Source: Eopsaltria australis
Lineage: Eukaryota; Chordata; Aves; Passeriformes; Petroicidae
Assembly: GCA_034509425.1 (NCBI GenBank)
Contig: JAVTVJ010000002.1
Coordinates: 1 to 64,000, forward strand
DNA length: 64,000 bases
Direction of reading: 5' to 3'
In this document: piece by piece, positions 1 through 45,668 of the stretch
Numbering within the stretch: position 1 is the first letter of the stretch
Layout: each line of letters begins with the position of its first letter
The notes under the pieces: model-generated
Database searches by the model: none
Seen by the model: the letters and a program-made list of their open reading frames with translations, nothing else
Told to the model about the DNA's origin: nothing
Position numbers and translations under genes: made by a program

Positions 1-2683
1 ATCTCAGATTTTATTTTAGTTTTGTTTTTTCAGCTAGCATATGGCAAAAGGTATCTCTTTTCCTAGAGGGGAGAGGGCAGGATGCTCAGCTTTCACTCAA
101 ACAGAGCATGAGGGTTCAAAAGCCTCTGGGTGCAGTGGTGTCTGCTGACACCATGTCCTGGTTTCAGCTCTTGCATAAGCAAAACTAGAGACAGGGCTCT
201 GCAGCCATGCCTGCTGCCCAAAATGAGCCTGTGCCCAGCATCTGTAACCCAGGATCAGCTCTGGGGAAAGAAGTGCATGGCAAGGGGCTGAATGACCCCT
301 TGGGAATTCCCCTCCCTCCCTGGGAGCTGCACGGGCACTCAGCCCCGGTCCCTGCCTGAGCCATGCCCCTTGCCTGGCTGGCTCCCTCACTGACCTGGCT
401 CCATAGGCTCAGCATCCCTTCTGCTTTGGGCCCAGACAAACCCTTGGCCTTGCCTGTGTCCAGACAAGCCCCTATAAAATCTTAAAATTCATACACCAAG
501 CACACCAAATTAAAACACATAGACAAGTCTCCCTGGTAACTGTATATAAAGCAATTACTAGAGATACCTCTAGCCATGCTGCTATATCTAGCAGCAGCAG
601 CTTGTTTCACGCAGGTTTGTTTAATCCAATCACTAGCATATTAATAATAAACAAAATAAAGCAAAAAAATAACTGGGGAGATGGTAGAAATATTCTTCAG
701 GGAAAAATTGCATGTGGGGAGAGATCACATCACCAGGGAGTCTTCTATTAGAAAAATATGTAAGATTGGAGCAAGACTTAAACCCCATGCATTTTTTCCA
801 AAAGTGAACTCCTTACATATCATTACACAACTCACAATTAGAAAAGAAAAAGTGTTTCCAAAGTCTAATTCCTTCCTTGCATAAGTAACCTACTTCAATC
901 AGTTTATTTACTTGTTGAAAAAGTACCTGTCATCTTAACACATTTCCTATTGCTCTCTTCTTACAGGAGGATCACTCCAAGGATCACAAGTGTTTTTCTA
1001 AATTAACATGCTGTAATCTGCTAGCTTTTTAAAATTCATATACTACATTAGGCCTTATTAGATAAGAAATCTGTCTTCCTCCCACCACGTTCATCCTGCC
1101 AATGAGTATCATCCCTGACACTTTCTGATAAATCAGGGTTAGACATAAGGAAAACAGTATTCCACTGAAACTGCATCAGGAAGTTTAGCCCAGCAACATC
1201 TAATTACTCAGATGGAATACAATGCAAATAGAATATAACATCCTGGTTAAAGACAATCTGGGACCTCACCACCGATTTCTGTTTAATGGTATCTAGTAAC
1301 AAGACCCATGAGAAAGAAACTCTACATAACAAGAGACAAATAATCTTCCTGTAGGCTGCAGCAATTGGTTTGAGTTGGTAATTAAATTATTTCCTACTTA
1401 TTGTTTGGCAGAGTGTTTTGGGATATTTGAACTGCAAATAATTCCACTGTTACTGCTTTCAGTGTTAACAAGGCATTTTTCTCATAAGTATTGGGAGGCA
1501 GCAAACAAACATTGACAAAGAAAGCTGCAACAGAAACCCAAAGCAGGTTGTGGTATTGGGGAGGCAGCTGAAGTGCAGAAAAAATTATGAGTATTTCTCT
1601 TAGTGTTGTGGTTTTGGTGTGGGGCGTTCTATAAATAATATCTTTTTATTTAAATGGCTGCAATTTCAGGAATCAATCTTAAAAAACTGATATTAATCTC
1701 CAAGGCTGTGAAACCCATCCACAACTCTTCAGCTGGATTTCAGTTCAGTGGATGCTCCAGTTTTAATGGGTATTCTTGATACTACAAATCACAGGCACTG
1801 AGGAGCTGCATTTCTGAAAAAATAGATCATGTTGTCTGGCATCCAGCAGCTGAAATTTCAGGGTTAATTTTGAAAAGCCAACCCTAAACAGCCTGCAAAA
1901 ATGTTCACAGAGGGATGCAGAGGCTGGGGTCCAGGGTGGCAGGCATTGCTCCGGGACACTGCCCATGGCCTTGGGCGGGGGCACACCATGGGCACAGCAG
2001 TACATGATGGGAACAGACTGCATGGGCTCCCACTCACTCAGGGAGTTCTTCAGCTTACCCACAGGTGCCTTTTAAAATCACTCTCTTGACTGAGCCAAGG
2101 AAACAGGAACATGCACTGGTGCTGTAATAGACTGCTTTTGGTACATTTGCAAATATGCATTTATGCCAGAAAAATGCCTTGTTTACATTATAAAGAGTAC
2201 TCCCTTAATGAAGCACTTTCTTAAAATATCTCCTCATACTGACATGTTACTTTAAGCTCTCTCATTTCCTCACTTTAATTACTTTGTCTTAAGGAGCTTT
2301 ACTTGCAGGAATTATATTGGAGCTCCTGACTACAGTATTACCAAACTCAAAGTCTGTGGTTCATAGCCATACTTTCTTTGGGCATTGAAGCAGCATCACT
2401 GCAGTTTGCAGCAACAGACACACGCCATGACTTCTACAGCACTATAAGTGTTTTCTGCCCCTTCTTAGCTCAGCTCCTCTTTTCCATTCAGTTCTCCTCT
2501 GCCCTCCCATCACCTCATTGCTGTACTACTCGGCTGCTTCCCTGCTAAAGCATCTCTTTTCACATCTTTCCTTTTCATGAAAAAAATTCCCAGTAGTGTA
2601 TTAAAGTCTGTATGTCAGGCACCTCCATGAAGTTGATGTAAGACGCAGTGAGAAAAAGCAGCAAGATAAATAATTAGAAACAT
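1..2683. other. Intergenic, no gene seen
   Basis: Open frames up to 99 codons show no family motif. A TATATAAAG at 540-549 has no recognisable promoter context. Nothing else was recognised. Confidence 0.6.
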
Positions 2684-2888
2684 TATGAGGAACAGCTGCA
2701 GGAGCTGAGTTTGTTCAGTCTTGAGAAGAGGAGGCTCAGGGGGACTTCATCACTCTCCACTGCTCCCTGAAAGGAGGCTGTGGTGAGGTGGGGGTCAGTC
2801 TCTTCTACTGTGCCTGCAGTGAGAGGATGAGAGAAAATGATCCTAAATTGACACAGGGGAGATTCAGATTAGATAATGGAAAAAACTA
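2684..2888 (+). mobile_element. CR1 LINE fragment
   Basis: The run ATGAGGAACAGCTGCAGGAG, then GAGAAGAGGAGGCTCAGGGG, GAAAGGAGGCTGTGGTGAGG and TGGGGGTCAGTCTCTTCT, is the conserved CR1 3' region in sense orientation. It fades after 2880, before the usual terminal microsatellite. Confidence 0.85.
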
Positions 2889-5800
2889 AGGAACTGCAGT
2901 TGCTGCATTTTTGCACAAAGACATCCTTCCTGGAATGTGTTTCACAAACATGGCATCTTATTGTTCTGTAAATACCACTGTGTTAGCCTTTTAAAAAGAA
3001 AAATGAGAGGGAAAATCAGCAGCATAATTACTGAGAGAGGTATCACCAACCAAGGAGCACAGAAAATAGAGACGAGGGGGTGTAGCAGACTCAAATTATG
3101 ACCCTCACTTCATCGGAGAGGTGAGTTTTTCTGTTTGACATAATTCGACAAGTTAAAGTTTTTCAGTACAGAGTAAAGTATTCTAAAGAATATGATCCTC
3201 TCAGAAAAAAAATTTAAAAAAAATAAGACAATTAAGGAAAAAAGGTCCTCATCAAAGTGTTCATTGATGTGGAAAAACCAGTTTTTTAAAATAAATAAAG
3301 CTAGCAATTCAGTGGAGAATTATTTATTATCTCTGGCATTCACACTCCCACTGGTGCTGTCACCAAGTGCAAGTACAGGTGGAATAATAAATACATAAAT
3401 ATATATCATAAAAATAAATAAAATAAAAATTATAATATTATAATAATTAAAAATATATAAAAGGAAACAAGCTCACATTTTATGATGGGACAACAATTGT
3501 TAGAGTTTTTTCAGTCATGTTTCAATGTAGAAAATGTGCAGAATTCTGCTTCACCAGTTCTAATGCCACAAGGCTGTAATTAATATATTCCAACTGTATA
3601 TCTGCAAAGGCAGAACTAAGGCAGAAAAATGTATGAAACTCATACAAAATCTGGACAGAGCGTATTCATTCTTATCAGTATTTAATTAAATATAAATCAG
3701 GTAATTAAAACAACTGCCAGCCCATTCTATCCTGGCATTGTTCTGTTTCTTTTTAAATATTTGAAAGGCAACATACTCCTCCAAAGACTTTTTTTTCTTT
3801 AGAAATAAAAGCCAAACTCTAATTTCTTACGTGTCTTGACACGGTGATGACAGCTCTATAAACAGGTGTAATTGTAGAAAACTGAGTTTTCTATAATTTC
3901 TGATGTTTGATTTTGAACACACCATTGCAAAGAAATATTATGGAACAAGTTTTGAAAGCTCACTTGCTGTGGCTGGGGGATGTGTGTTTATGGTGCTGCT
4001 GCACCACAAGCCACCAAAGATCAAACCCTGGGATGTTCCTGGGGCTGTCATTGAGAGGGATGGTCCAGTCCCCTTGCTGAAGAAGCCTTTGGGCTGCACA
4101 CACAGATGTCATCGGTGTGGAAACCCTCCCCACCAGGCTGGGTTTGCAGTCTGTGCATGTCCTGTCAGCAAACAGGTGGGTGCTGCCACATGTGGAACTG
4201 GCTGGAGAAGGAGCGCTCAGTTTGGGCACAGAACACCATCAGATGCATCCCGACAAACACAGGCAAGAGCACAATATGAGAGCTGTTGTCCAATCTTGGG
4301 CAAAGTCTGTTTTGATCAAAATGAAATTCATATGGATAATTTGCTATTCTGGAGGTATATAAAATGATAGCCTTTTTTCCCATAGTGTTTAAGAAAATCT
4401 AATTTCTTTTAACACAAGAAATCAGGGAGTTAATTAAACCCATCCTTCACTCCACAGTGAAAGTTAAACCAGACCCTAATGTTAAATAAATGTACTGAGA
4501 ATTGCCAGTCTTTGATTTTGGACAGCATTCCTCTTGTAATTAAATTGTGTCTGAACATAATCAGGTTACTTTTTGCCTCTTACTGGGATTTTAGGGACAT
4601 CAAACACCCCTTCAGTAACAGAGTTGCAGTGATGGATCCATTTCACCCACCAAATTAGGCAAAACTGTGTTTGGGCTGCCAGTGCCAAAGCTTCCTCCTC
4701 CTTCTCTGCATGCTGAGAGCACTGCCAGGGCAGTTCCAGCACTGCCTGCACCACTGCTGAGGTCAGGGGTATTTCTGGGGCCTGGCTTCAGAGTCAATAC
4801 ACGACTCTCCTTCAGAAGCATCTTCTGAAGAGTGAGTGCACAGCATGCAGTGTTGAGGATGTGGAGGAGTCATTAAAGTGCCAAAATATTACAGACTGCC
4901 CTGCTAAGTGGATGTGAAAGATCCCTGCCAGGAGATTAAGATCTTCAGAGACTGCCCTAAAATGAACTTGAGAGAGCACTTTCTGCAGTAATTTAATACT
5001 AACAGGATTTATACATTTATTTTTAAAAATCCTTCTGCATGAAAAAATTCCCAGTGCCTTAGTGACGGCATGCCAAGAAATCATCCTCCCTGGTCTCAGC
5101 CTCACTGCTGAGAAAGGAGTCTTACAGGAATCCAGAGTCAATAATCTCAGCACAAAATGAGGTTGTTTGCTTTTTTTTCTATAGGAACAACAGAGAGAAA
5201 GAGGAAGAGTTTGAGGAGAAGAGGAATACAGGAAAGCAATAATAGGTGCTGTTTAAAGCAGAATTCAAAGTAGTAAATAACACAAACACTGAGCTGAATA
5301 CCTGCGTTGGTGGAGGTAAATATGTTGGTAGGAAGGCAGAAAGTGGAATGTGCCATCATACAAATGCTTTTTCCTCACATGTTAAAAATAGTGAAGATAA
5401 GTGCAGTCTCTTCATGGCAAGAGGAACTTTTTATCCCCAGCACTTCTGACAATCCAACAAACATACAGAATCCTGAATCAGCGGAGATCTTTTCCATTAT
5501 TCTTTTCCACTCCACCTGCCCTTCCTTCCCCCACCCATGGATGTGTGTTGAGCTGGAGTGTGGTGCAGAAAACAGCCCGAACTTCCCCAGGCTTTCTGAA
5601 CAAGCCTGTCCTTTGTCCCCATTGCTGGTACTGCCAGCTCCTGCATTGTAAAACAGTTTTCAAAGGGAGGGTGGGGAGCCTGCAGGGGCCATACCCACCA
5701 CAGCCATTTTATATTAAATCCTAAAGGTGCCATCAGAGCACCCCTCAACCCCTATAATTGCACTCCTACAGAATGCAATGTCTTCTAAATTATTCAGTGG

Positions 5801-8039
5801 CTCCCAGGGTAAATTCCTTCACCCTGGGTCTCAGGAGCACTGGCACACACCATGCTCACTTCTCAGCAGCACTGGGGAGACAGATGAGGCTCCTCATTGA
5901 CAGTGCCTTGACACACTCAGCTCCTCCAAAACACCACTGATCAAGCAAGGATGTTCTCATTTTTTTAGCTAAAAGATGCATGCAATCTTTACTCCACTGA
6001 TTATGACTATTCCTATTTCTCAGCTGGGCATCATGTCTTCATCACAAGCTTGACCCCACTCAATTTCCTTGTGTCAGCCACTGCTCAAATTGTCCTCATG
6101 TTAGTCATGACCAATCCAGGCTTGGGATCAAATGTACACTTCTCTACAGACCCAGTTCACATGAATTCTATTTTTAAAACCATCAGAGAATCCAAATAAA
6201 CCAACAAGTTCTGCTTAAGCACAGATTTCTTGTTGCAATAGAGATTGAACTTTCTTCTCTCAGAGATCAGTGGCAGACACAACAATTATAATATATACCT
6301 TTGTCAATGAGACAAAGCTCACCAGTCCAAACCTCCAACCCTGAAAGTGGTGCCAGGCACAAAGACCAACTGCCATACAACTGGGAAAAACCACCATGTC
6401 TCCTCCAAAGTGTGTTTTACATGAACAGGTAAAAGAAATGCAATATACATAGGGAAGAGAGGATAGGATGCAGAAAAAGCAACTGGTTAGAAAAGGTTTT
6501 AAAGCAGAGAAGAAGGTGGCAGCTTCTGTTGTCTGTTCAAAGTTTCCTTGTAAGACTATTCACCTACCTTATGTAAAAGGCATCTGTAAAAAGTTCAAAA
6601 GTTTCCACAAAGATCCCTACAAATCTAATTTTTGCCTAGATGCAGAAGCAGTTTAAAGCTCCTTTCAGTCTATTCATTTTCTTGAAGTAGATCCAGATTA
6701 AAAACAATCCCTCCAAAGAAAAAAGAAAATCCAAGCACCTATTAAATCCATTCCCTCTGATAAATCTTTGTATCTGTATCAGGTGTCTTCAGTTCCCACA
6801 ATCCCCATACTTCAGCCTGCCATTCAATGATTTTATTAAATGGTAACTTCTTAAGAGATTAAATGAAGATTTATTCTTTGACCCATATTCCTCTTTGCAG
6901 AAATGATAAGTTTCTGATACTCTCTTGAGGCTGAATGGAGGTCAAAGCAATTGTAACTGATCCTGTACACATTTAACTCTTACAGAGACTAATATTTGCT
7001 GACTGTATGCACTGACACCCTGTGTAAGTCACCTGAAGGAAAGCTACCCAAAGCTTTCAATCTTTTCAGCCCTGCAGCCTTGTCTCCCTCCACAGGACAG
7101 TTTCCAGTGATGTTTGGTGCCACAGCAGCATCCCAGCAGCATCCCCTGCCTGGGGGCCCCCCAGCACAGCTGCTGCCTTTGCACTTGCTTAGCCCTAGCA
7201 CTAATCTGTCTTGCTATAAAACCTCCTCAGCTCATTCTGCAGATGCACTTTTACCTGGTCTGCTGGCTTGTATTCAAGAAACATGGCCATTGTGGAGCTA
7301 GTAATAACTTAGAGCAGCTTTTTAGTGGCAAATGGTACTGCAGAAATGAAATAATTTACATCCCTTTAAAATTTTTTGATTGTTCCACGCTAAATATTCT
7401 TATATTCATTATTCTTATATTTAAATGTGATAGCTCATTTTGAAATTACTTGTGCAAAGCTAGTGTCAAAATAGTTCAGGTAAATTCTCTTTATTCACAA
7501 ATAAATATTTAGATATTTACCATTTCATTCACCCTGAGAATTTAGGGGACTGTAAACAACAAATTATTTTACAACAGGCACAATTGCTATTATTTTGTCT
7601 CATCAGTCTTCATACCAATTAAACTGACCTTATGCTGAGCAGCAAGCTCTGAAAACTTGGGCTGCTGTATACGTGGAAATACAGAGAATTTTAATCAGCC
7701 ATGACATACCCAGCAGTGTCTGTCTGCTGGCATGGAGGAAGCTGCCTAGCAACAATGCAAAGAAATCCTCCAATAACCCTGGCAGATCACAAAGAGTCTG
7801 TTAAAAATGGTAATCTCTCTCATAGACAAGTAGAGATGGTTTCAATTAAGGACAGCAATTCTCAACTTGTTATTTATACACAGTGAACTAAAATAACATT
7901 CATATAGTATAAATACAATGTGAAAAGGCCATGCAAAATTACTTAGAGATGTAATTTGCAGTACTTAATTTGATATTCACATCTGTAAGCCTTTTGTTTT
8001 GCTTAACAGCAAAAACATTCCAGCTACACTGGAGCTCAT
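2889..8039. other. Intergenic, no gene seen
   Basis: Holds the AT-rich tract at 3382-3462. The longest open frame (3903-4367, 154 codons, plus strand) has no recognised domain, splice context or promoter, and overlaps frames of similar quality on the other strand. Confidence 0.6.
3382..3462. repeat. AT-rich low-complexity tract
   Basis: About 80 bp made almost only of A and T (AATAAATAC, ATAAAAATA, TATAATATTATAAT). No regular unit is present. Confidence 0.85.
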
Positions 8040-8185
8040 ACAAGATAGAAATCTCAGCAAATAGGGCTGGAATGGGCTCAAGGGGTTGTTTAGTCCATCC
8101 GCAAGCACCAGGTCAGGATAAATTATATATAAACCATTCCTATCAATAACACTGTACTTGTTTCCCAAAACCTGCAACTAAGCAG
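8040..8185 (-). mobile_element. Old CR1-like fragment
   Basis: GGGCTGGAATGGGCTCAAGG, GTTTAGTCCATCC and a later TTTCCCAAAACCTGCAAC follow the order of an older CR1 3' end read in reverse. It is diverged, so the ends are approximate. Confidence 0.5.
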
Positions 8186-8265
8186 TACACAACTTCCCTT
8201 GGCGCTCTGCTCAGTTGCCTGACTCTCCCAAAAATTAGAAAATGTTGGGAAATCTCTAACATGGA

Positions 8266-8520
8266 CAGAATAGAATAGAATAGAATAGAATAGAATAGAA
8301 TATGTTGGAAAGGACCTTAAAGATCATCTAGTTCCAATCTCCCGCAGCCAAGGGAAGGGATACCTCCCACTAAACCAGGTTGCCCAAAGCCCCATCCAGC
8401 CTGACCTTGAATACTTTCAAAAATGAGGCATCCACAACTTCTCTTGGCAACTTTTTCAATGCCTCACCATCCACACAGTAAAAAATTTCTTTTCACAGGA
8501 AACCTCCCTTGCTCCAATCC
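8266..8520 (-). mobile_element. CR1 LINE 3' end with (AGAAT)n tail
   Basis: A tract of AGAAT repeats (8267-8301) is followed by GTTGGAAAGGACCTTAAAGA, CATCTAGTTCCAATCTCC and GGTTGCCCAAAGCCCCATCC. This is a CR1 3' end read in reverse, with its terminal microsatellite expanded. Confidence 0.88.
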
Positions 8521-8843
8521 TGCTGGCTGTAGTGGAGCATACATAAAGAAAAATACACACTCTTTTAGGAATTTCTGATGTACTTGGAAATGGCTATCAT
8601 GTATCAGTCTTCTGTTGGATAAACAGCTCCAGCATTGCTCAGGCTTTCCTTATACAGCTCATACATCTTTACTGGCCTGCTTCCTATTTCTTTTTGATTC
8701 TTTCTCCAACTCCTTATACTCCTTCTTGCCTTGTATGTTGAGTAAAAGCACCCTCCCAATCCAAGTTGGCAGAGATAGCTCTAGGTCTGTGGCCATCACT
8801 TCTCCAGGCATTGCAGAATGCAGAGGACCTTTCTCTTTCTTCC

Positions 8844-8905
8844 TCTCTTTCTCTTTCTCTTTCTCTTTCTCTTTCTCTTTCTCTTTCTCTTTCTCTTTCT
8901 CTTTC
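8844..8905. repeat. (TCTTTC)n microsatellite
   Basis: About ten near-perfect TCTTTC hexamers. They create false open frames of Ser-Leu, Phe-Ser and Lys-Arg repeats on both strands. Confidence 0.95.
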
Positions 8906-9983
8906 CTCCTACGGATTCATGTCCCTTGTGTTGCTGGTGCTTTTCATGTCCCTGAGCAATCCTCACCTCTGGCCTTTCCACAGAAAACTGCGCCAGTAGA
9001 AGGACAGGAGCTAGCAAAGGGTGGAGTTGCCCACCCAGGGTGGACCCTCCCCTTGTGTGAGATCCCATTTCTCCCCATCAAAGGGCAAATATGGGGCTGG
9101 AGGCACCAAGCCCCTGCATGGGCTTTTGCCTCAGCCCTGCAGCCCTGCCTGGTCGGGCAATGGAATGTGCCCAGACCAACAGTGTGTGTTGTGGCCAGAT
9201 TTGCATCCACTCCAGGCAGTTTATCCTCTGGATAACAGCCACTGCTTCTGTCCAGATGGAGCCCTGGGATCCCAATGGGATGTGTCCTTCCTGCCTCAGT
9301 CCAGCAAAGCACCAGGACGCCACGGCAGCCCTCAGCTGCCCTGGGCAGTGCTGGCTGCAGGCAGGAGCACCCATACACAGATTTTGGTTGCCCCCAAAGA
9401 CTAACTCATTAAAGAATTAAAATTTAATGCCTTTAGAGATTGCATCCTGGCAAAACAAAGTCCCTAGTCTCTCTTCAGGAACAATGAATCACTTTTTTCT
9501 TGATGAAACAATGAAAAGACTCAGAGTTTTCCAGTGGATTAGCATAAACCTTTATCCTAACTTGGCAGAGCTGGAAGCAGCAAGGAAAAGAGCCCAAGAA
9601 AGGAGTAAACAGAGCACCTCAGTACCTGGGATTGAAACACTTGAAAAAAATTCACTGCTCAACACAAGCTGTCAACCCCAGTCTTTAGAAACATGCATTT
9701 TCAAATTCAGAACAAAATGCCAAAGAAACCACTTTAATGTTGTTGACCAGATGTTTATATTTTGTTGATATTTTTAACAGTCACCTGACAACAGTTAATT
9801 CAGTGCTTTGAAGAGGGATGTCACTATGTAAAGTCTTGCTATTGGTGTAATGATGAATGGACTTCACTGCTGAGTTTGATAAATCAAGATCCTTCTAGAT
9901 CCTACACAGCATGTGCATACTTACTGTGCTACTGCAAAGTCTGCATGCAGTCTTTCATGCCACTAGCATGAAAAACTAGCTTT

Positions 9984-10022
9984 CATATATGTGTGTGTGT
10001 GCTTGTAAATATATATATAAAT
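9984..10022. repeat. Short TG/TA simple repeat
   Basis: TATGTGTGTGTGTG followed by ATATATATATAA. A looser TATA-rich stretch follows at 10055-10090. Confidence 0.7.
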
Positions 10023-13000
10023 TTGTTAGGGGTTCTTCCAAAACATACCAAATACATGAATATATACACATATAAATGTATTTATATATTTTTGTCACAT
10101 TAGATAGTCAATTGTCACCAAAACAAAAGTCTGATTTCCTTTTTACTTATTATTAATGTGCCTGATTTCTTAGCTCGTTGGTTTTTATTCCACTGCTCTT
10201 CTTGCTGGAAGTGGAGTTTTGATTGTGGCACACTCTAGAAGCAATGAGAAAATGTGATCATTCTCAAAGGTCTCAGTTAAATGCTCTGTAGCTCATATTT
10301 ATCAGTCAAGTCCAAACCTTTAAATTTGACTACAAAAGGCAAAACTTTCCTACCTGTCACTCTCGTTTCTCCTCTTCAGGAAGCTATGCCTTGGTGTGCT
10401 AACTCTCAGCCTTTGTACAAACCAAAGTGGGTATTTTGGAGTTTTAATAGAGCTTAAGCAATGGGTTGCAGACCCATTTCTTGTATCTGCATATTTATTC
10501 CAGCAAGGGGAAGCTTTATACTCAGGGGCATTCCTTTTGTTGCTGGCAACATAATAACATTTGCTTAATTGTGTTTTATTAATGTTAATATACCCACAGG
10601 CTCAGACTCTGCCCGCACATTTTTGTAAATTGAATTAAAGGAAAAATGAATCAGAGTTAAAAGACAGCTGATTAATTTTATTCACTTGCTTAAGGGGCTT
10701 TAAACCAAATGGTCTCCACGTTTATTTTTCTCTAGAGAACAGACTTTATAGCCACAGGGCTAAGAGAAACATGTCAGTAAGCCATTTTCATTGCCATGTG
10801 TCAAAGAGAGCTATTTAAAGCACTAAAGGAGGGACATTAGGGAGAGGTGCTTACCCCCTGCTCTGAACAAATGGCAGGGTTATACAGCCATGGTCTCTCC
10901 TGCCTGCTGCTGAGATCAGAGGGCTTTCATTTTTTAATGAAGCTCTCAGAACAGCCCCCAGAGCCTGCTGCCTGAAACAGGCAAGGACACAGGCATAGCA
11001 CAAACCCACTAAAAAGGGATGTTTTAGTCCACACAAAATCCAACTTATTAGCAGATCTGCCTCAACACATAGTGTAACTTAAAGGCTATTAATGAACTTT
11101 TTAATAGGCTTTTAGCTAGTTGCAGAAAAGATCAGCTCTTGAGACAGATTTCTCATTTGGAAATAAATATAATACATTAGAGACGCCTCCAGTGGATGTA
11201 TATTTATACAAAGCCTGGGCTGAAATATCAGCATGGATGTGGGGCTGTTCGGTAGGAGCCTGCCAGCTATTGAGAAGGGTCTGGCCTGAAGAGACCCTGT
11301 ACAAAAAAGATGTTCTTGTAGCCCTCCTTTCAATGATTCCTTCACAACTTCCTATTCAAAACTGGTAAGTCAGAAAAGATAGAAAGGTAAAAATCTAAAG
11401 AAAAAAAGATTGTTCAAATATATGCAAAAGTGAATGGCTTGAGCCCCTCTGTGTCTGGAGAAGCTACAGCAGATGTCCCTTATCATGACTGGGACATCAT
11501 GTCAGGATCAGGATCTGACTATTCTCCTATCTGTTTTGGCAGCAAGGGAGTTGGAAATGGAAATCCCTAATCCATATGGGAAGGATTTCCACTCTTCTAG
11601 GTCCCGTGATCATGAGATGGGCTGGAGAAGGGTCCCAGGCAGCAACAAACCATCTTCACCACATGGCCATGGCCAACACTCTGTGTAAGAACACAGGCCA
11701 CCTTACACTTTCCCTCCTGGTTAATCCTGATGCCTCAAGTGGTTCCCTCCTCCTCTTCCCACAGCTAATGACACATGAATAATGAAAAGGAGAAGAAAAT
11801 GTAAAATTTCTGGGAGTAGAGGAAGTTATTAATAAGCTCTCCAAACAACCTGTGAAGTGTTTTGCAGGCTTTTTCACATTCTGTGTTCCAGACAAACCAG
11901 ATATATATTCCAATAGGTCTTGCATGCTGCATGCATTTGGCAAATACTCTGCTACATCCCAGCCCATGAGACACCTCCACGTGCCACCAGGCATAATCAG
12001 CAAAGCCATCCACCAGGTCAACAGCCACTGAAACGTGGGAAATTTGGGGCACAGCTTTACAGCTAAGGGTGACAAATTCTTCCCTTTTGGTCTCTGTGTG
12101 TGTGTCACCAACACAATATCCTGGTGGAATTTTCACACCACTTGGATAATCATGGTCTCTACCAAGCCCCCAAATAAGGTCTCTGGCCACTTGTAGGACA
12201 TGGGTGCTCACACCATCCTGGACATCCACACCACACCATGGACACCTCACACACCCAGAGGATTACGATGCTAGCTGTACTGCAGCCCAGAGCTCTTCAT
12301 TATGCACCCCCACTCCAACACCCTGCGCTGCTTCTTATCTTTCACTGGTGTATCTCTACAACAATGTTCAGCCTTGTGTTGGTGAACGAGAGGGATTCAG
12401 GGCAATCTGGCAGAGCTGTTCTGTTTGCAGGGCAACTGTGACATTGATTGGAGCTTTGCCCTCACTTCATTGAGAAGAAAACAAATTCTGATTCTGTATA
12501 CAGAGATTTTCTCCCAGACTTGTAGCATTTTGGCCTGGCCTCTCCTGCTCAAATAATGGTAGGACAGCTAAGGATCTGGAACTGCTTGCTCTTTGCCTTC
12601 AGAAATGAAAAAAACACAAATGTATGCACATGGCTTTGATTTCTCTAACTTAGCATAGTGTCTGTTTAATCTCTGAGTATCTATATTTCTGAAAATAGGG
12701 AAAAGTAGACTTGGTCAGGGGTCAGTCACTTCAGAAGTGCTTGTTTTCCATTAAAATATCCAGCTAGGCATTTTTAAAGAGTAAACAGACCAGAAATAAG
12801 ATTCTTATTCTTCAGCACAGAGCTACACACTATGGAGATGGCTGAAAGCTATGAATTTGCATGTTGGTATTGGTGTTTGTGGTGGTGACTTTAGACTGTG
12901 GCACAACACTCGAGTGCTTTATTGATTTGAATATTTCTGGTAGCAACACTTGCACATCAGAGAAGCCTGTTGAAGGTGAGGAAGTATGCAGCTTGATGGC

Positions 13001-14911
13001 AAATTCAAAATAATGAACAGTGACACAGATAACATATTCAAAACATTGTTAATACTTAAGCTTTCAAAATGCTTCATAGTTTAGGAAACTTCTGGGGAGC
13101 TCTGATTTCTGATTAAAAGCATCAATAAATTGAGATTAAAACACTAAGCTATTATGTTGCTCTCTAACTGTTAAATTTAGAGCAATTTCTGTCTAAAGGG
13201 AGTGAGATGTTGGGGGTTCCTTGCCTCACTTTTTTTTCCCATTGAAAATATCTGAAGTGGTGTAAGATTTGAAATGCATCTCCCATACTTAAGGATTCTA
13301 TTTACTCACTAGGATGCACAATGGAACTTTGACCCTCATAAAAATGATAGCATGACATATTCCTTGATTCCATGACTTTGAAATGCAGGACTATCAGGCT
13401 CTGAATGAAAGAAAAATGCAGCTGTCACTCACGTTCCTGTCTTGGCAGGATGGAAACCTTTGGAGCCTGTCACAGCTGGGTGGGAGCTGACCTTCTCCTT
13501 GCTGCCATTCAGCCTGCTGCAGGCAGCACACGGAGACCTCCAGAGCCATGCAGGGCTCTCAACACCCACACAGAAAAATGTGTGGGATTCCAGGATGGCC
13601 AGTGCATCCCTGGGCTTCTCCCAGCAGACACAGATGCTTTTTAGTATTCTTCCATGCTTCAGGCTGACGGAGGCAGGGATGAAAGAGGAGAAATGGCACT
13701 CTGCAGAGGGCTCCTCCTTTTAGTCCTTTATGTCCTTTGGCCCTAATGCAGTTGTTTTTCTCTATCATATACAGTGCAGAATAAAGATTTATGATGACAA
13801 AAATCCTATTTTTAAAACTACAGCAGAAGCAGTCACTTTTCAGAGAGCTCTGGGCAAGCACAGCTGCTGTCTGGGACTTCTGGCTGGTGGGCCAGGTGGA
13901 GCCAGGCTGTAAGCAGACACTGTTCCTTTGATCTCAGCAAGTGATGCTCTTCCTTGTACTCCTGCTGAGCTTGGCCTGGAGTGCCTAAAGCCCTATAGGA
14001 GCTCATCAGCAGCCTGAGAACTTCCCAGGCCCTGCTGGAGACCCCTGAGGATGGGTTCACAGGAGGAGCCTCACTTCTGAACTTGCCCTGTCAGAAGGAG
14101 AGAAATGGCTGTCATTTAAAAATAGAAATAAAGTTTCTACAAAACCCGGGCACACAACTCCCATTTGCTTGCTTAAATTACTTCCAGCTGAAGAGGCAGT
14201 GCCCCCAACAGCTCCTGAGTGGTAGGAACTTCATGCTGAGAAGGCCATGCAAGCTTTGGTAATGCTCAGAAAGATGCTTTAAAACTAACACAGATTTGCT
14301 GTCTCATAGGAAGACCCCAAGGTGCTCCCTTTGCAAAGGGAAAAATGTGCCATGACAGGACTACTGTGCACACTTACAGTACAAATGCTGCTCAAAGAAA
14401 GCACTTAGCACGTGCATGTGAGTGAGGAACCCAACCCATCTGCACAGCACTGCCCCACTCTTCACTGGATGCCACCACAGCAGCCAGTCATTGTCTTTGG
14501 AAGGGTCTGCCCCAAGCAGGAGAGATGCTGCTTACAGCAAAGACTTTAAATAGAAACAATCAGCAGAACAACTGACTCCCTGAATTGACATTAACCAAAC
14601 TGCAGCCTTGATGGGGAGTTATCCAGTCTCACAAGACTGTGCTGTTTGCTGTTGAATGCTGGGGAGCTCTGATCCAGAGATACCTTTTTCCTCCTGTACC
14701 TTCAATCCACTGCATTGCACCATTGGAAGAACATGAGAAACAGTGCAAGATCCAGCTTTAGATGTGCATGTCTGCATAACACACTAGCAGTGCCTCTAAC
14801 AAAATGTCAAGAAAGCATCTCTGAGTACCACAGGGACTACAAAAAGGGATACAAGTTTCCTTCAGCTAATTTACCAAGGTCTACCTATGATTTGTGAGAT
14901 TATTTCTACTG

Positions 14912-14916
14912 CAACC
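14912..14916. repeat. Target-site duplication, left copy (CAACC)
   Basis: CAACC lies immediately before the TG of the 5' LTR. The same five bases follow the 3' LTR at 18173-18177. The match does not extend to six bases. Confidence 0.9.
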
Positions 14917-15209
14917 TGTTACAGTGGTTCGGAACCAGAGGACTTCCGGACAGGTTCCAGGGACAGAGGGTTTCCCCCCGGAGCTCCCAGGGGCAGCAGT
15001 TGGACCACCAATCCACGGACCCAAGCTCCTGCTATTGGTTACTGGACTTGTCTGTTATGTTTCCCCGCTCTGGGAAATTCCCTGTCACTCCATAGTTCAT
15101 TCGTTGTTCTCTCTGTTCCCCTCCCCTCCCTAAACCCCATTTGATCATGTACCCCAGCCCCTCCCCTGTATTGTCCCCTGCCCTCATCCTATTGGGTGTT
15201 GTTCCTCCC

Positions 15210-15216
15210 TTAAATA
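15210..15216 (+). promoter_or_regulatory. LTR TATA-like box TTAAATA
   Basis: TTAAATA lies 53 bp before the LTR AATAAA and about 20 bp after an inverted CCAAT box, the spacing expected for an LTR promoter. The same site in the 3' LTR is at about 17894-17900, where it could drive outward transcription into flanking host DNA. Confidence 0.6.
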
Positions 15217-15268
15217 CCGATGTAATAAGCTGCTCTTGGCTCTTGGTCCATGTGCTCCCTTTGGAGGC

Positions 15269-15274
15269 AATAAA
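15269..15274 (+). terminator. LTR polyadenylation signal AATAAA (5' copy)
   Basis: AATAAA sits in the sequence GAGGCAATAAACC, just downstream of the TATA-like box, marking the R region. The functional copy for the genomic transcript is at 17953-17958. Confidence 0.75.
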
Positions 15275-15491
15275 CCTACCGAAATCACATACCAAGAGAC
15301 CTCCTTCTCTGGTAGTTCTTTGCTGTTTCACCACGCTCCGGGGGCAACACCTCCCCGGACCGAACGCGGGCCAGCTGTGCTCATAGTCAGCACTCCGAGG
15401 AAGTCTTCCAGATCGCGAACGACTTCCTAGGGTAGCGCTAGGACTCCGCTGCCGGTACCAGGGTGGGACTGAAGCAGGGAACGCAACAAAG

Positions 15492-15510
15492 TGGCGCACC
15501 GAACAGAGAC
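15492..15510 (+). other. Primer-binding site, degenerate tRNA-Lys type
   Basis: Three bases after the LTR end comes TGGCGCACCGAACAGAGAC. From memory, the tRNA-Lys3 site of betaretroviruses and lentiviruses is 18 bases; this one fits with one inserted A and one G-to-A change. Lysine is the best assignment I can make by eye; another tRNA is possible. Confidence 0.65.
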
Positions 15511-15987
15511 TCCGACCTCTCGGGGTTCCCTGCGAGCGACCTGGATACGCAGCAGCGGTCCGGACTGCGCCTTCGGGACGTCGCTCCCCTAGCGAGAACT
15601 TCCGCGTTTTAGCGGGGGGCTGGCAGGGGCCGTCAGCAACCGTTCTGGAGCGTCTGAAGTGTGTACGCTAGCTGAGCGAACTGACGAGACCAGAGACCCT
15701 TGCTTTTTTGGATGTTTCTCCCTCCGGAGCCGGTGACGGCAACTGAAGCCGGGATCGAGGAACCAAGACCCGCACGGAGCGGTGAGGTTTGGCGGCTGCG
15801 AGGCGCGGTGGGAAAGGACCAGGATCCGCGCGCGGCGGCGAAGCTCGGTGCCCGTGATAGCGGCGGGAAAGCCACCGAGAACCGAGCGCAGACGGTGAGG
15901 TCTAATCCGCGATAGGCAGCGGGAATCAGGCTCGAGGGAGAGTTTTGTACCATATAAAAAGAGCAAGGAGGCTTTTATTCGGAGACA
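15511..15987 (+). other. Proviral leader, GC-rich
   Basis: This untranslated leader of about 0.5 kb between the PBS and the Gag-like ATG is rich in CpG. It contains two good splice-donor matches: CG followed by GTGAGG with GT at 15782-15783, and CG followed by GTGAGG with GT at 15895-15896. A packaging signal would be expected here but cannot be identified by sight. Confidence 0.7.
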
Positions 15988-17418
15988 ATGGGTATTAAGC
16001 TGTCCCGAATAGAGCAGGAGTTTTATGTCCAAGTTAAAGAGACCCTAAAGTTAAAAAACGGGAATGCTAATAAGAAGGCTTGGAAACGTTTTGTTAAATG
16101 GATCTTTGCCTATGTCCCTCTTGCTTCTGCTTCTTCTGTTAAAACTCTGAGTTTTTGGGAGTTAGTAGAAAAACGTTTAGAGGCAGTGGAGAGAGGGGGT
16201 GATGTTTCTGTCCGAAAATTTTTCCCGTTGTTGATTGTAATTTGTTATACTTTGCGTAATTGTCCTGAAAGTTCGAAATCCCCGACTCACCCACCCCACG
16301 TTCCTAATTCCCCTTTTCCCAATCCCTCTTCCCCGCTACAGGGAAGTGCGCCCCTCAGTTCTCCCCGCTATGAGACTGATTCCCTCATAGCGAGCTTCAC
16401 CCCAAACCCTTTCTCCGAGCCCTCAGTCAAACTCGCGCCGGCTGCGCTCCCCCATTGTTCCGAGTTTAAAGATGGCGGCGGCCTCGTGGCGCCGTGCCTA
16501 CACCCCTGCGCCCACTGCGCAGCCTCACACCGAAAGCCCGCGAATCCTCCCAGCCCCTCCCACGGCTCCTTCCCCTTCGCGTCGATTGGCCCCGCGTCGG
16601 GCTCCCCCCCCGCGGCCGATGATGTCTTCGCGTCGGGTCCCTCCCCTCGCGCCGGAGGTCCCTGCCCCAGCCCGAGGGAGATCCCCGCCCCACCGCGAGC
16701 CTGGACTGCTCATATCAACTGCAGTCCCACCCCTAACCACCGCCCACTTCCAGATCCCCACGCTCCCTCGTTCACACCCCGGGATTGGGGGCCGAAAAGT
16801 GGAGAGGCTGAAGCCTGTGATGCAGCCGGTCAGCCAGACCCTGCAGTGGCATCAGGTGTGCACAGCCCTCAGGGTAACAACCCACGATGGGAATCACAGT
16901 CACCTGCAGCCTTGCGAGAGCCTAGCAAAGTGGAGAGAGAGCTTGGGAGAGATTCTCCTCACTTAAAAGGTGTGCTGGTCCCATCTGACATAAAAACAAT
17001 CCTGACAGGCATTTTAGTTAAGGTTCAGTATTGGGTGTGGGAAAAGATATGGAAGCAGCAGCTTCAAAGCCTGCTGAACAGTTCTAATCACCCTCCACCT
17101 AAGTCTTCCACAGCCTCCTGGACACCACATGCTCCAAAAGCTGAATCCACTGTGTCCTGCTCTCCATCACCACCCATGCCACTGGAGACCCCATCAGAGG
17201 CGATCCCAGATGACCAGTCACTTGAACCACGATGGCTGAAGTTAGTAGGCATCACAACTCTCCACCCAACACATCCACCAGAGCAGATCCAGTCGCATCC
17301 ACCAACAGACGCTGCTCCACAGAGATCAGCGTGGAAGAGAAGGAAAAAGAAAACTCCAAACTTCGACAGTCATCAAGAAAAATCACTGAGACCCTTCTTC
17401 TTGATATCTTCCCCTTAG
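15988..17418 (+). CDS. Gag-derived ORF: MA domain, proline-rich region, CA remnant
   Basis: This is an open frame of 476 codons. It begins MGIKLS, fitting the N-myristoylation pattern (G2, S6), followed by about 90 residues with aromatic and basic spacing like the betaretroviral MA (Gag p10) domain, for example KAWKRFVKWIF and TLSFWELVEKRL. Residues of roughly 95-320 are rich in Pro, Ser and Ala with no clear fold. Residues of about 330-360 (PSDIKTILTGILVKVQYWVW) resemble the conserved capsid N-terminal segment that has a Pro-Asp start and a later Gln-Tyr-x-x-Trp. A basic cluster WKRRKKK lies near residue 450. No CCHC zinc knuckle or capsid C-terminal homology motif is seen, so it is not a complete Gag. 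MA could still direct membrane binding; any function of the rest is unknown. Confidence 0.75.
   Translation: MGIKLSRIEQEFYVQVKETLKLKNGNANKKAWKRFVKWIFAYVPLASASSVKTLSFWELVEKRLEAVERGGDVSVRKFFPLLIVICYTLRNCPESSKSPTHPPHVPNSPFPNPSSPLQGSAPLSSPRYETDSLIASFTPNPFSEPSVKLAPAALPHCSEFKDGGGLVAPCLHPCAHCAASHRKPANPPSPSHGSFPFASIGPASGSPPAADDVFASGPSPRAGGPCPSPREIPAPPRAWTAHINCSPTPNHRPLPDPHAPSFTPRDWGPKSGEAEACDAAGQPDPAVASGVHSPQGNNPRWESQSPAALREPSKVERELGRDSPHLKGVLVPSDIKTILTGILVKVQYWVWEKIWKQQLQSLLNSSNHPPPKSSTASWTPHAPKAESTVSCSPSPPMPLETPSEAIPDDQSLEPRWLKLVGITTLHPTHPPEQIQSHPPTDAAPQRSAWKRRKKKTPNFDSHQEKSLRPFFLISSP
16270..16830 (+). other. CpG-rich segment inside the Gag-like ORF
   Basis: This stretch has CpG density far above the rest of the window outside the provirus. 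It contains AAGATGGCGGC (16469-16479), the YY1-type motif typical of housekeeping promoters, and an inverted CCAAT in CGATTGGCC (16584 on). It encodes the proline-rich part of the ORF. It may be viral coding sequence or a captured host CpG-island fragment. Confidence 0.55.
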
Positions 17419-17516
17419 ACTCTCCTGAAACCTACCCCATGTACCTCCCATACCCCAATCATTCCCAGTCCTGTAGAGAGACAATGATTTAACAATGTTT
17501 GTTTGTTTATTTGCAG

Positions 17517-17582
17517 ATTTTCAAGACTTTGCTTTGGATTTTAGTTATTATCTTCATTGTACTAACAAATCACTTTCTTTAA
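17517..17582 (+). pseudogene. Env transmembrane C-terminal remnant (22 codons with stop)
   Basis: The sequence after a splice acceptor (pyrimidine-rich tract ending TTATTTGCAG at 17516) reads IFKTLLWILVIIFIVLTNHF and one more Leu before TAA. The hydrophobic run followed by a very short tail and a stop just before the polypurine tract is where a retroviral Env TM protein normally ends. The frame closes upstream at a TAA at 17490. It may be only a splicing and 3' sequence remnant. Confidence 0.5.
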
Positions 17583-17584
17583 GT

Positions 17585-17601
17585 AAAAAGACAGGGGGAG
17601 A
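17585..17601 (+). other. Polypurine tract
   Basis: AAAAAGACAGGGGGAGA lies directly against the TG of the 3' LTR and is all purine except one C. This is the plus-strand DNA primer site of retroviruses and fixes the 3' LTR boundary. Confidence 0.88.
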
Positions 17602-18172
17602 TGTTGCGGTGGTTCGGAACCAGAGGACTTCCGGACAGGTTCCACGGACAGAGGGTTTCCCCCCGGAGCTCCCAGGGGCAGCAGTTGGACCACCAATCCA
17701 CGGACCCAAGCTCCTGCTATTGGTTACTGGACTTGTCTGTTATGTTTCCCGCTCTGGGAAATTCCCTGTCACTCCATAGTTCATTCGTTGTTCTCTCTGT
17801 TCCCCTCCCCTCCCTAAACCCCATTTGATCATGTACCCCAGCCCCTCCCCTGTATTGTCCCCTGCCCTCATCCTATTGGGTGTTGTTCCTCCCTTAAATA
17901 CCGATGTAATAAGCTGCTCTTGGCTCTTGGTCCATGTGCTCCCTTTGGAGGCAATAAACCTACCGAAATCACATACCAAGAGACCTCCTTCTCTGGTAGT
18001 TCTTTGCTGTTTCACCACGCTCCGGGGGCAACATCTCCCCGGACCGAATGCGGGCCAGCTGTGCTCATAGTCAGCACTCCGAGGAAGTCTTCCAGATCGC
18101 GAACGACTTCCTAGGGTAGCGCTAGGACTCCGCTGCCGGTACCAGGGTGGGACTGAAGCAGGGAACGCAACA
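17602..18172 (+). repeat. 3' LTR of the provirus
   Basis: This LTR is 571 bp, directly after the polypurine tract. It starts TGTTGCG and ends CGCAACA, a perfect 7-bp terminal inverted repeat that the 5' copy has lost. Its AATAAA at 17953-17958 would end the viral transcript. Confidence 0.95.
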
Positions 18173-18177
18173 CAACC
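18173..18177. repeat. Target-site duplication, right copy (CAACC)
   Basis: CAACC lies immediately after the CA end of the 3' LTR and is identical to 14912-14916. This shows a single integrase-type insertion that has not recombined with another copy. Confidence 0.9.
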
Positions 18178-42189: not shown

Positions 42190-45100
42190 CAAGTGTTTTC
42201 TCAGCTGTGACAGCCTTGGAATCATCATGAACCATTTCTGTTTCTGGAGGTTCCTCATTGTGAACTGATAAATTTAATGCCAGACATTCATAATCTGCTC
42301 CAATTTCCAGTATGACTGGCCAAAACTGCTCTCAGGAGGTCTCAAATCAGGCCCAGTATCTTGTGGGTTAACCCAAATTGTTCCTCAGAAAGCCACTTTC
42401 AAAGGCTGAAAGGCAAGATCTGGTGCTGAGCCAATACCAGACATATGGGTCATATGTCCCTGTGTGTATAGGGGATGAAACAACTTGAAGCACTATCTTG
42501 TATCCATGTGCAGAGTTTAACTGTCCAGCATGGACACAGTTCCTGCCAGCCACACCAGCCCCTTTTAGCTGCTGCTCTGGAGCAGAGCCTGCTCTGGGTA
42601 GAGACAGACAAACCACCGTGGTTTGTGGGGGTGCAGGGGAGGACTGGAGCACGTGAAAGCCAGGTTGTCTTGTGACCTCTGAAGAAGAGAAGGAGAATGC
42701 ATGTGCTAAATGATGGCAATGCAGCGGCTACAAAGCTGCCATGACTGTTCTTACCTGTTGCACTTAATACCTGCAGTTCCTACTCGGCACTGTGCTTGGG
42801 AAACCTTTCACGATTCACCTCTGGAGCTTTCAACACAGGAAGTGTGACTGAACTGCTCCCTCGGGCCATTTTCAGGGATGACAAAGTTTACCCAGAGGAC
42901 CTCAAAGACTCTGAAAACTCTACAGCTTCTCCTTTCTTCTGACTTTAGTGTTGGGCAACACAGGTCTTGCAGCAAAACCAGGAAATTTATCGGGTCAAAT
43001 CTGCTGTGCATCCACCAATGTCCTGGTCTCCAAGACATTTTTGGAGGACTTCTTAGCTTGGGGTTAGAGTCCTGCACAATGAACATCATCTGGAGCTGCA
43101 GTGTGGGCATTACCAGAAGCCCAGAAGGATATTGTGTATCCCAAGGGAACACAGTTAATTAAGTGCAATCTTCCTCTGATTTCTTCACATAAGAGATGCC
43201 ATGAAATTTCTTAATCAGCAGCCTAAACTTGTGTGGCTGATACTCTGTGGGTTTGGAAGAGAGCTGCAAGGACGTGAGGAAGGTGTAAATTAAAGTAGGT
43301 CACATCAAGATTATTTTAATTTACTTCTTCCGGTGCTTGCAGAGTTGGCTTCCACTTCAGCTTCTGCCTCAAGCACCCCAGCTCATAACTTACATTAATT
43401 AGGCCCCTAAAGCAAGATTCATGCTAATATGTAGGCAGAAATACAAATACAATTTTAGTGCATTACAGTATGATTGCCCAGCAGTGATGCTTATAGCCCA
43501 GTACCCCTGCAAAACCAAAAGCAGTGCATAAAACATCCCAGTGCTATGGCACCAGTGCCCATCTGCTTCCTCGGGGAGCTTCTCTGGGCAAAAAGCAAGT
43601 GCCTCAGTGGCACAAAAGCAGGATGGAATGGTCAGCACCCATCCCAGGGGCCATCAGGATGAGGAGTTGGTTTTCACCCAGGGCAGGAGCAGAAAACCCT
43701 GCTCAAGGGGATGAAGGGAGAGAAGGAGATGCCAGGTTTCTTGGTGGCATTTCCCTCCCATGGGCACAACTCATCGCTAGCCATGCCAGCCCCTGAGCAG
43801 GAGGAGCCACTGGCACCCTGAAGCAGCTGGCATCCACTTCCCTGTGGGAGGATGCCACATCATGCAGACCAGTGGCCCTGGGAAAAATAACTCATCAATC
43901 ACTAATGGAGAGTCACAGGAGATGCTCCTACTATGTGGGAGTAGATGCCAAAGAACAGCTGAGCAGGGGGCTGTGGTTTATTTTTAATTTTGTGCAGTAT
44001 ATTTGCCTTCCACATGATCCTCTCATTCTTCCTCTCCCAGCACATGTAAATAGAGAGACAGTAAATGGCACACTCGGGTCCCAGCAGACTGAGCCACGGC
44101 ACAGAGCTGCTGCAGATCACCGAGCTTGCTGTGGCTGTCTCACAGACCCACCTGCACTTCATGGAGACATCTTCCTTTTCCTCACACCCCAGAGCAAGGT
44201 CAGGTAAGAGGCTGCAGGGCAGCCCCACAGGCACATTCCAGCCTGTGCTGCTTGTCTTGGCTGACGGATCCGTGCACAGCACGCTCCCAGACCACCACAC
44301 ATTTGGCCACTGAGGAAAACCTCTGGATGCAAAACCCCTTCCTGGATAGAATCATGTTTCACTCCTGGAAAGTTTATTGGCTAATCTACAAGGGCTCTCA
44401 AATAAAGTTTATGAGCCTGTAAACGCTCCCTGCCATGAAATGGCCCCAGGAGCCAAGGATAACCTGTGTGAGCTTTACTGCAGCCTTTTACCAGGAGCAG
44501 TGCTGGGATGTGGTGCAGGCTGCTCCAAGGGGCCGTGGGGAGGGTAGTTGTGAAGCAGGGAGACTGAGCTCCTTGCTACAAACATCACCAGCTGCCTTCA
44601 GCCCTGACTGCTGTGGTGGCACTTGGGCCAGCTGGCAGCTGGGGTGTCCCATGTGGATGGACACCACCCTGGAGGTATTTACTGCTCCTGAACCAAGACC
44701 TATCACCCTCTCACAACCTTGTGTTCTTGCCTTTCATTGCAAAAGCCAGGCAGTTGTGGCAAAATTAGGACAGCTGCTGCTGACAATTAGCTTCAGATAA
44801 GGTCTTCAGGGTGTCCAATGGGAAATAAATGAATGCTGTTCAAGCCAGCACTGTAAAGTCCCCCTGGCAATCCCTGCCAGACCTCACCCTGCCAGCAGGC
44901 ACCAGGCAGCCAAGCAAGGGGCCCTGCCACCCTCTGCTTGCAGGGCTGGGTCCCCACCAATGCAGCCCAGCCCAGCCCAGCCCAGCCCAGCCCAGCCCAG
45001 CCCAGCACAGCACTGCACAGCACTGCCCTGCACAGCACAGCACAGCACAGCACAGCACAGCACAGCTCAGCACTGCCCTGCACTGCACAGATCAGCAGAG

Positions 45101-45439
45101 CAGAGCACTGCACAGCACTGCATTGCACTGCAGGAGGGCTGGCACACTCTGCCAATGGACTGCAGCTTCATAGCTTTCTGGATTTATTTTAAATAGATGT
45201 TTGTTCTAGTGTAGTCTAAACCACTGCTGGCCCTCAGGGAAGGTGAATACCTGCCCAGCATGGCACAAACTCCACCTTCATTCTAACTTATCCTGCACCT
45301 CACCTGTGTGTAAGTATTACTTTATGCAGAAAGAGCAGAGAACGGGACTTTATAGGTGCTCAGCACACCAAAGCCACACTTCCAGTCTCATATATGTCAG
45401 GCACTGACTGGGTCCAATGTTTCCAGTGGCTCCCCATGA
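42190..45439. other. Intergenic, GC-richer, no gene seen
   Basis: Ends with the CAGCC/CAGCA repeat. The frames of 80-120 codons around 44793-45196 are products of that repeat. Confidence 0.55.
44963..45130. repeat. (CAGCC)8 followed by CAGCA-type repeats
   Basis: Eight perfect CAGCC units (44963-45002) pass into CAGCA-type pentamers with CACTG interruptions up to about 45130. The minus strand of the first part is (GGGCT)n. Confidence 0.95.
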
Positions 45440-45668
45440 TACTGAAAGAAGGTAGTCTTGAATTGGATATTAGGAAGAAATTGTTTACTGTGAGGGTGGT
45501 GAGGCAATGGAACAGGTTGCCAAGAGAAGCAACCTGAAAGTGCTCAAGGCCAGGCTGGATGAGGCTTTGAGCCATCTGGTTTAGTGGAAAATGTCCCAGC
45601 CCATAGCAGGGGAATTAGAACTAGATAATCTTTAAGATCCCTTCCAACCCAAACTATTCTGTGATTCA
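45440..45668 (+). mobile_element. CR1 LINE 3' fragment
   Basis: TTGGATATTAGGAAGAAATT, GTGGTGAGGCAATGGAACAG, GATCCCTTCCAACCCAAACT and the terminal ATTCTGTGATTC are the conserved CR1 3' end in sense orientation. Confidence 0.9.

Follow-up and report, generated by a model that had tools for sequence, protein, structure and literature searches.

A young, repeated short provirus in the genome of Eopsaltria australis, probably mobilised by a longer env-less ERVK-like relative

Defective retroelements that live beside related competent ones have been described in several mammals (published systems are given here from parts of the papers cited). In the mouse, the ETn element is mobilised by the related coding-competent, env-less MusD (PMC6466679, PMC10089650), and the deleted form IAP 1Delta1, which needs other IAPs in trans, makes most new IAP insertion mutations (PMC6466679). 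In cattle, ERVK[2-1-LTR] comprises competent C-type and defective D-type forms with pervasive recombination within and between them; about half of the C-type copies have env and the other genes intact, while the D-type has its central segment swapped for a piece of an old retroelement and its germline mobilisation has been observed (PMC10924933). Non-autonomous ERVKs related to mysTR are abundant beside their autonomous relatives in the deer mouse and are thought to derive from recombination (PMC10089650). Young ERVK insertions and solo long terminal repeats (LTRs) have been reported from songbirds (PMC10542752, PMC11009239); the passages of these two papers considered here describe no pair of short and long forms, and the word 'non-autonomous' occurs 0 times in either main text. 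Among the open-access papers listed in literature searches on this subject, none described, by title and start of abstract, a pair of a short form and a long helper in birds. Here we describe a 3.26-kb provirus at 14917-18172 of a 64,000-nucleotide stretch (the window) of the passerine Eopsaltria australis (GCA_034509425.1, contig JAVTVJ010000002.1, positions 1 to 64,000, forward strand).

We read this provirus as a young, repeated, non-autonomous ERVK-like copy, the RNA of which was very probably packaged, reverse transcribed and integrated by the proteins of a longer env-less relative. By analogy it would work like ETn/MusD, IAP 1Delta1 and the bovine D-type in its need of a helper, without being a member of those families. 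As with ETn and MusD, a non-autonomous form stands beside a related coding, env-less element, but unlike ETn, which has no coding capacity, the bird element keeps a frame of 476 amino acids from its relative's own genes. With IAP 1Delta1 it appears to share an env-less class II background, and it shares an internal deletion that leaves an open gag-pol fusion; it differs in having four deletions, in including a piece of pro, in having lost the capsid C-domain and the zinc knuckle, and in its bird host. The bovine pair resembles it in recombination within and between the two forms, whereas the bird interior is deleted and not replaced. The mysTR-related ERVKs share mainly the 3' region with the autonomous form, unlike the bird element, in which the LTRs and leader are nearly identical to those of the long form and the rest is collinear. 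Compared with the cis effect of IAP 1Delta1 and the mobilisation of the bovine D-type, the bird element is known from sequence alone, and its shared polymorphisms show no constraint. It would add a bird example to the mouse and cattle pairs: a parasite of an env-less retroelement, with a likely helper in the same genome and visible crossovers. With short/long pairs of this kind one can test by what means defective elements come to outcompete their helpers, and whether they gain from a fused Gag frame.

To place the window copy, its 5' LTR was searched in the source assembly (1.17 Gb, 5919 contigs; the window is the start of one contig), and the best 40 of 1566 first-look candidates were scored. 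The window's own LTR matched at 100% and the others at about 99%. Behind these best 40 stood 33 loci, namely 27 short proviruses, 4 solo LTRs and 2 long copies of about 7.2 kb (C998 and C246). Copies entered the sample through the likeness of their LTRs to that of the window copy; it is no census. The solo LTRs (L003, L019, L022 and L034) had no interior within 1.5 kb (L003) or 2.75 kb (the other three). Both LTRs lay at least partly in the fetched stretch in 26 of the 27 short copies, which were parsed; L029, at a contig end, was left out. L015, on contig C1, is counted in both figures though it is probably the window locus twice, which would otherwise make them 26 and 25.

Results showed that the short interior is collinear with that of C998 minus four stretches of about 540, 59, 3200 and 110 bp, the junctions of which we call J1 to J4 (Table 1). 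Sharing of the junctions was counted in the 26 parsed copies with up to 3 edits allowed. J1 and J3 recurred in every one of them and J4 in all but one, and 19 of the 26 had 6-bp target duplications of their own, each different from the rest, which points to separate insertions. The preliminary description of the window, made from its sequence, had weighed a family against a single deleted provirus; the latter was rejected on these two results. The 6-bp duplication expected of ERVK / class II elements was thus found in 19 of 26 copies, and the 5-bp duplication of the window copy falls one base under this family rule. Among the remaining copies, L023 and L030 had one flank missing and L015 had flanks without a match. 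In L042, the 6-bp duplication stands after two extra bases (AA) at the U5 end of the 3' LTR, as if these had been left untrimmed by integrase. In L016 and L017, the primer binding site (PBS) and leader follow directly after the 3' LTR, like a tandem LTR-interior-LTR-interior array.

Full-length relatives with matching LTRs exist in the same genome: C998 and C246 carry pol together with the LTR, PBS and polypurine tract (PPT) of the short form. Over 1.5 kb of their interiors the two agree at 99.3%. Both were read in pieces, and the frames were open where read. The pieces of C998 gave Gag_p24, Gag_p24_C, zf-CCHC, RNase H and integrase, and those of C246 gave reverse transcriptase with its thumb and integrase. 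Between the end of the integrase frame and the 3' LTR lie 158 bp in C998 and 172 bp in C246, which leaves no env at this place. An env tail had been considered for the region preceding the PPT and was rejected, since in the long copies integrase ends there. For the Gag piece of C998 the best PDB match was 8c9m, a 'Gag protein' (E=2.8e-19), followed by the Gag of ERVK-8 and ERVK-24 (E about 6-8e-14); for the gag start, PDB yielded no more than five matches, all at chance level (E 0.56-0.81). The integrase piece matched 7usf, 3jca and 5cz2 best, which we take to be structures of mouse mammary tumour virus. With Gag and Pol matches closest to class II, the element is probably an ERVK / class II (betaretrovirus-like) one.

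In the collinear map against C998, nothing of reverse transcriptase, RNase H or the integrase core is left in the short form. The same deleted interior thus stands at separate sites without reverse transcriptase or integrase core, in agreement with the preliminary description of a non-autonomous young provirus. Its statement that the element has no pol holds for these domains and not for the integrase tail, which is pol-derived. Similarly, the claim of an only Gag-derived frame is right for about 365 codons of gag; after J1 come the gag tail, then J2, a piece in the pro frame, J3, and the C-terminal tail of integrase in the pol frame. Its comparison with deleted retroelements that keep only cis signals falls short, as here the open fused frame is kept as well. 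The frame itself is poorly recognisable: its Gag_p24 match at amino acids 329-372 is weak (E=1.2e-4; 22.4 bits, under the Pfam cut-off of 24), no PDB homologue was found at E <= 1, and none of 7994 scored candidates in a protein collection reached E <= 0.001. Its N-terminal 95 amino acids matched no matrix family, the one match (E=0.19) being below the cut-off. A 23-bp tandem repeat at 16654-16699 within the frame is a slippage spot, with 1- or 5-bp indels in four copies (L016, L018, L026 and L031).

J2 exists in two nested forms. Ten of the 26 copies have 45 bp more than the window at this place, and in 4 of these 10, which were aligned, a nested 14-bp gap against C998 remained. This indicates that the deletions were stepwise, and the loss of 14 bp would, as the simpler order, have preceded that of 45 bp. 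A subfamily of three copies (L021, L030 and L036) is missing 84 bp, or 28 codons, from the frame; the 45-bp segment is present in L021 and L036 and absent in L030, which suggests crossovers between short subfamilies.

Exchange between short and long forms was examined by comparison with C998 in 100-bp blocks, as per cent identity per block. Over the first 800 bp (5' LTR and leader), blocks of the short copies were mostly at 95-100, with scattered blocks at 90-95; the exceptions were two blocks at 54 and 86 in L027, a copy with a truncated LTR. Beyond 800 bp, three mosaics aside, blocks lay at 25-96 and were lowest at indels. The C246 interior stood at 96-100 throughout (the first 572 bases of its row are C998's own and uninformative). 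In the window copy, the match to C998 falls off between 15705 and 15773 and is regained near 17560, shortly ahead of the PPT. Of the mosaics, L017 is long-like over its first 1.6 kb, L036 reaches 100 in two adjacent blocks, and L023 is long-like in a 3' stretch that lacks J4. Mean LTR distances were 1.6% between short copies, 1.3% between short and long copies and 0.7% between long copies, and three LTRs of long copies sat among those of short copies in the tree. A four-gamete test on 22 of the 26 short copies (L015, L017, L023 and L036 left out) put the minimum number of crossovers at 36, and at 23 once CpG-prone sites were set aside. Such recombination patterns are read as co-packaging in the bovine ERVK study (PMC10924933).

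We propose that about 3.9 kb was lost stepwise (J1 to J4) from an older relative of the helper, and that a small open frame of fused pieces remained. In the short form that replicates, the LTRs and the first ~280 bp of leader would be those of the helper, present already or gained by RNA template switching, and this form would have continued to exchange segments both with the helper and with other short copies. Its RNA would be packaged and copied by the proteins of the long relative, and the crossovers would come from template switching in mixed, co-packaged particles. We infer relatives of the C998/C246 type as the helper. The preliminary suggestion of mobilisation in trans is retained as the best reading, favoured by the shared junctions and by pol-bearing relatives with matching LTRs.

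Several points weigh against this proposal. The case for it, for expression and mobilisation alike, is one of sequence comparison. Selection of copies by the likeness of their LTRs to that of the window copy biases ratios and ages towards the young. Only two full-length copies were available; the three LTRs from them that entered the tree are about as near to some short-copy LTRs as to each other. The full-length lineage from which the old short interior would descend is itself presumed. One of the 27 short copies (on C1) looks like an assembly artefact, and in place of template switching, gene conversion among integrated copies or faults in the assembly could account for some of the recombination.

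The likeness of LTR and early leader might also reflect constraint and not recombination, as the LTR, PBS and packaging sequences are functional. We consider this very unlikely, because the match drops abruptly within non-coding leader, the three mosaics have clear long-form patches elsewhere, and the long-copy LTRs do not stand apart in the tree. Spread by segmental duplication, or a single deleted provirus, is extremely improbable: one other locus, on C1, does carry the left flank of the window copy, but that looks like one locus twice in the assembly, and the duplications differ from copy to copy. Several separate gaps against the long form could recall a reverse-transcribed spliced RNA in place of a deletion derivative. 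However, none of the four junctions (0/4) shows GT...AG ends against C998, on which ground a splicing origin was rejected, and the gap at J2 (59 or 14 bp) is below intron size; we give it hardly any credence.

A further reading concerns why the short form is common: the fused frame would make a protein that acts in cis to help the RNA encoding it, an effect that has been reported for mouse IAP 1Delta1. We regard this as possible but doubtful. In its favour, J1, J2 and J3 each join in coding frame, a coincidence that we reckon at about 1 in 27, and the frame is open in 14 of the 26 copies, both with the 45-bp J2 segment (4 open copies) and without it. Stops were found among 0 of 69 changes shared between copies and 5 of 108 singletons, a weak contrast that is suggestive only. 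The ratio of nonsynonymous to synonymous substitution rates (dN/dS) in the 14 open copies was 0.53-0.54 in 17 more distant short-short pairs, and 0.50 for the short frame against full-length gag; as the mosaic L017, with its full-length-like gag start, was not set apart, these lower values may reflect the history of the helper. In 74 closer pairs, however, dN/dS was 0.77-0.86. Moreover, 19 of the 69 shared changes in the 22 copies tested (the same as in the four-gamete test) were synonymous and 50 nonsynonymous, a synonymous share of 27.5% where an absence of constraint predicts 28%, and they did not differ from the singletons (23 synonymous, 85 nonsynonymous; Fisher p=0.37). The shared polymorphisms of these 22 copies thus gave no sign of amino-acid constraint by purifying selection. 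The three copies with the 84-bp in-frame deletion are all broken elsewhere (0/3 open), and L018 and L026 have in common a frame-breaking 5-bp deletion, which lies in the slippage-prone repeat. That the fused Gag-Pro-Pol frame is a working product, favouring its own RNA or hampering the helper, is in our judgement rather unlikely. If it were, a bird endogenous retrovirus would have evolved IAP 1Delta1-type parasitism of an env-less retroelement independently.

The family of short elements is young. LTR divergence within elements ranged across the 26 parsed copies from 0.00% (L039) to 4.33% (L014), and it was at most 0.35% in 6 of them. For the window copy, a divergence of 0.88% gives about 2.2 million years at 2e-9 per site per year, the rate of the preliminary description, and about 1.9 million years at 2.3e-9, which PMC10542752 quotes as a flycatcher rate. 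The earlier age of about 2 million years thus holds at either rate, but as only five substitutions lie behind it, the true value may be twofold or more higher or lower.

The anatomy of the window copy is given in Table 1. Its two LTRs differ by 5 substitutions (4 transitions and 1 transversion) and 1 one-base indel (Kimura two-parameter distance 0.88%; 98.95% identity across 572 bp), and the interior measures 2113 bp. Alignment of the LTRs therefore reproduced the difference first reported (five substitutions and one indel over about 571 bp), and the exact CAACC flanks, the PBS and PPT in place and the 2.1-kb interior were all found as described. A chance origin of the structure is excluded by the identity of the LTR pair and by its repetition at other loci with different flanks. 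The PBS occurs with small variants in both full-length copies and two other short copies, and the PPT, with C/T variation, is found in C998 and in four further short copies. The PBS is similar to what we take to be the tRNA-Lys PBS of betaretroviruses, from which it departs by an inserted base and a mismatch. Scanning the window for Rfam families and tRNAs gave no matches.

Table 1. Coordinates of the short provirus and its deletion junctions in the window.
Feature	Position	Strand	Remarks
5' target-site duplication CAACC	14912..14916	.	exact match to 18173-18177
5' LTR, 572 bp, TG...CA ends	14917..15488	+	sequence
TATA-like TTAAATA in 5' LTR	15210-15216	+	sequence
AATAAA in 5' LTR	15269-15274	+	sequence
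Leader segment, 4 substitutions against full-length C998	15489..15772	+	3' limit is the putative old crossover at ~15705-15773
PBS TGGCGCACCGAACAGAGAC, AAG between 5' LTR and PBS	15492..15510	+	sequence
476-amino-acid open frame	15988..17418	+	Gag N-terminus, proline-rich linker, part of capsid N-domain, gag tail, pro-frame piece, integrase C-terminal tail
J1	17083..17084	+	540 bp lost, capsid to zinc knuckle; gag frame kept; 26/26 copies
J2	17136..17137	+	~59 bp lost; gag frame to pro frame; 16/26 copies
J3	17272..17273	+	~3.2 kb lost, pro to integrase; pro frame to pol frame; 26/26 copies
J4	17380..17381	+	~110 bp lost near integrase end; 25/26 copies
PPT AAAAAGACAGGGGGAGA, adjoins 3' LTR	17585..17601	+	sequence
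3' LTR, 571 bp	17602..18172	+	sequence
3' target-site duplication CAACC	18173..18177	.	sequence

The left flank of the window copy (1-14916) is also present on contig C1 (L015, L044 and L045). The 10 kb of L044 aligned to it at 99.9% identity (one gap, 0 mismatches), L045 matched at 100% over 2176 bases, and C1 and the window showed no difference across 12167 to 15140. On C1, this flank leads into a slightly different short provirus and then into a different right flank without a duplication. The matching CAACC on the window path makes a misjoin at the repeat on C1 more likely, though C1 is possibly a genuine rearrangement.

Elsewhere in the window, an inverted pair at 8292-8491 and 45475-45660 (about 77-80% identity) carries CR1-like 3' ends at 8303-8328 and 45624-45649. 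Each has two mismatches to the motif that we take to be the bird-type CR1 3' end, and none appeared in 100 shuffles. With up to 3 mismatches this end was found twice in the window and once in L045; an exact match was not found in 47 loci, nor was the CR1 microsatellite found when searched for. Two tandem arrays were also observed, CAGCA repeated 32 times at 44963-45122 and AGGACT repeated 12.8 times at 49198-49274.

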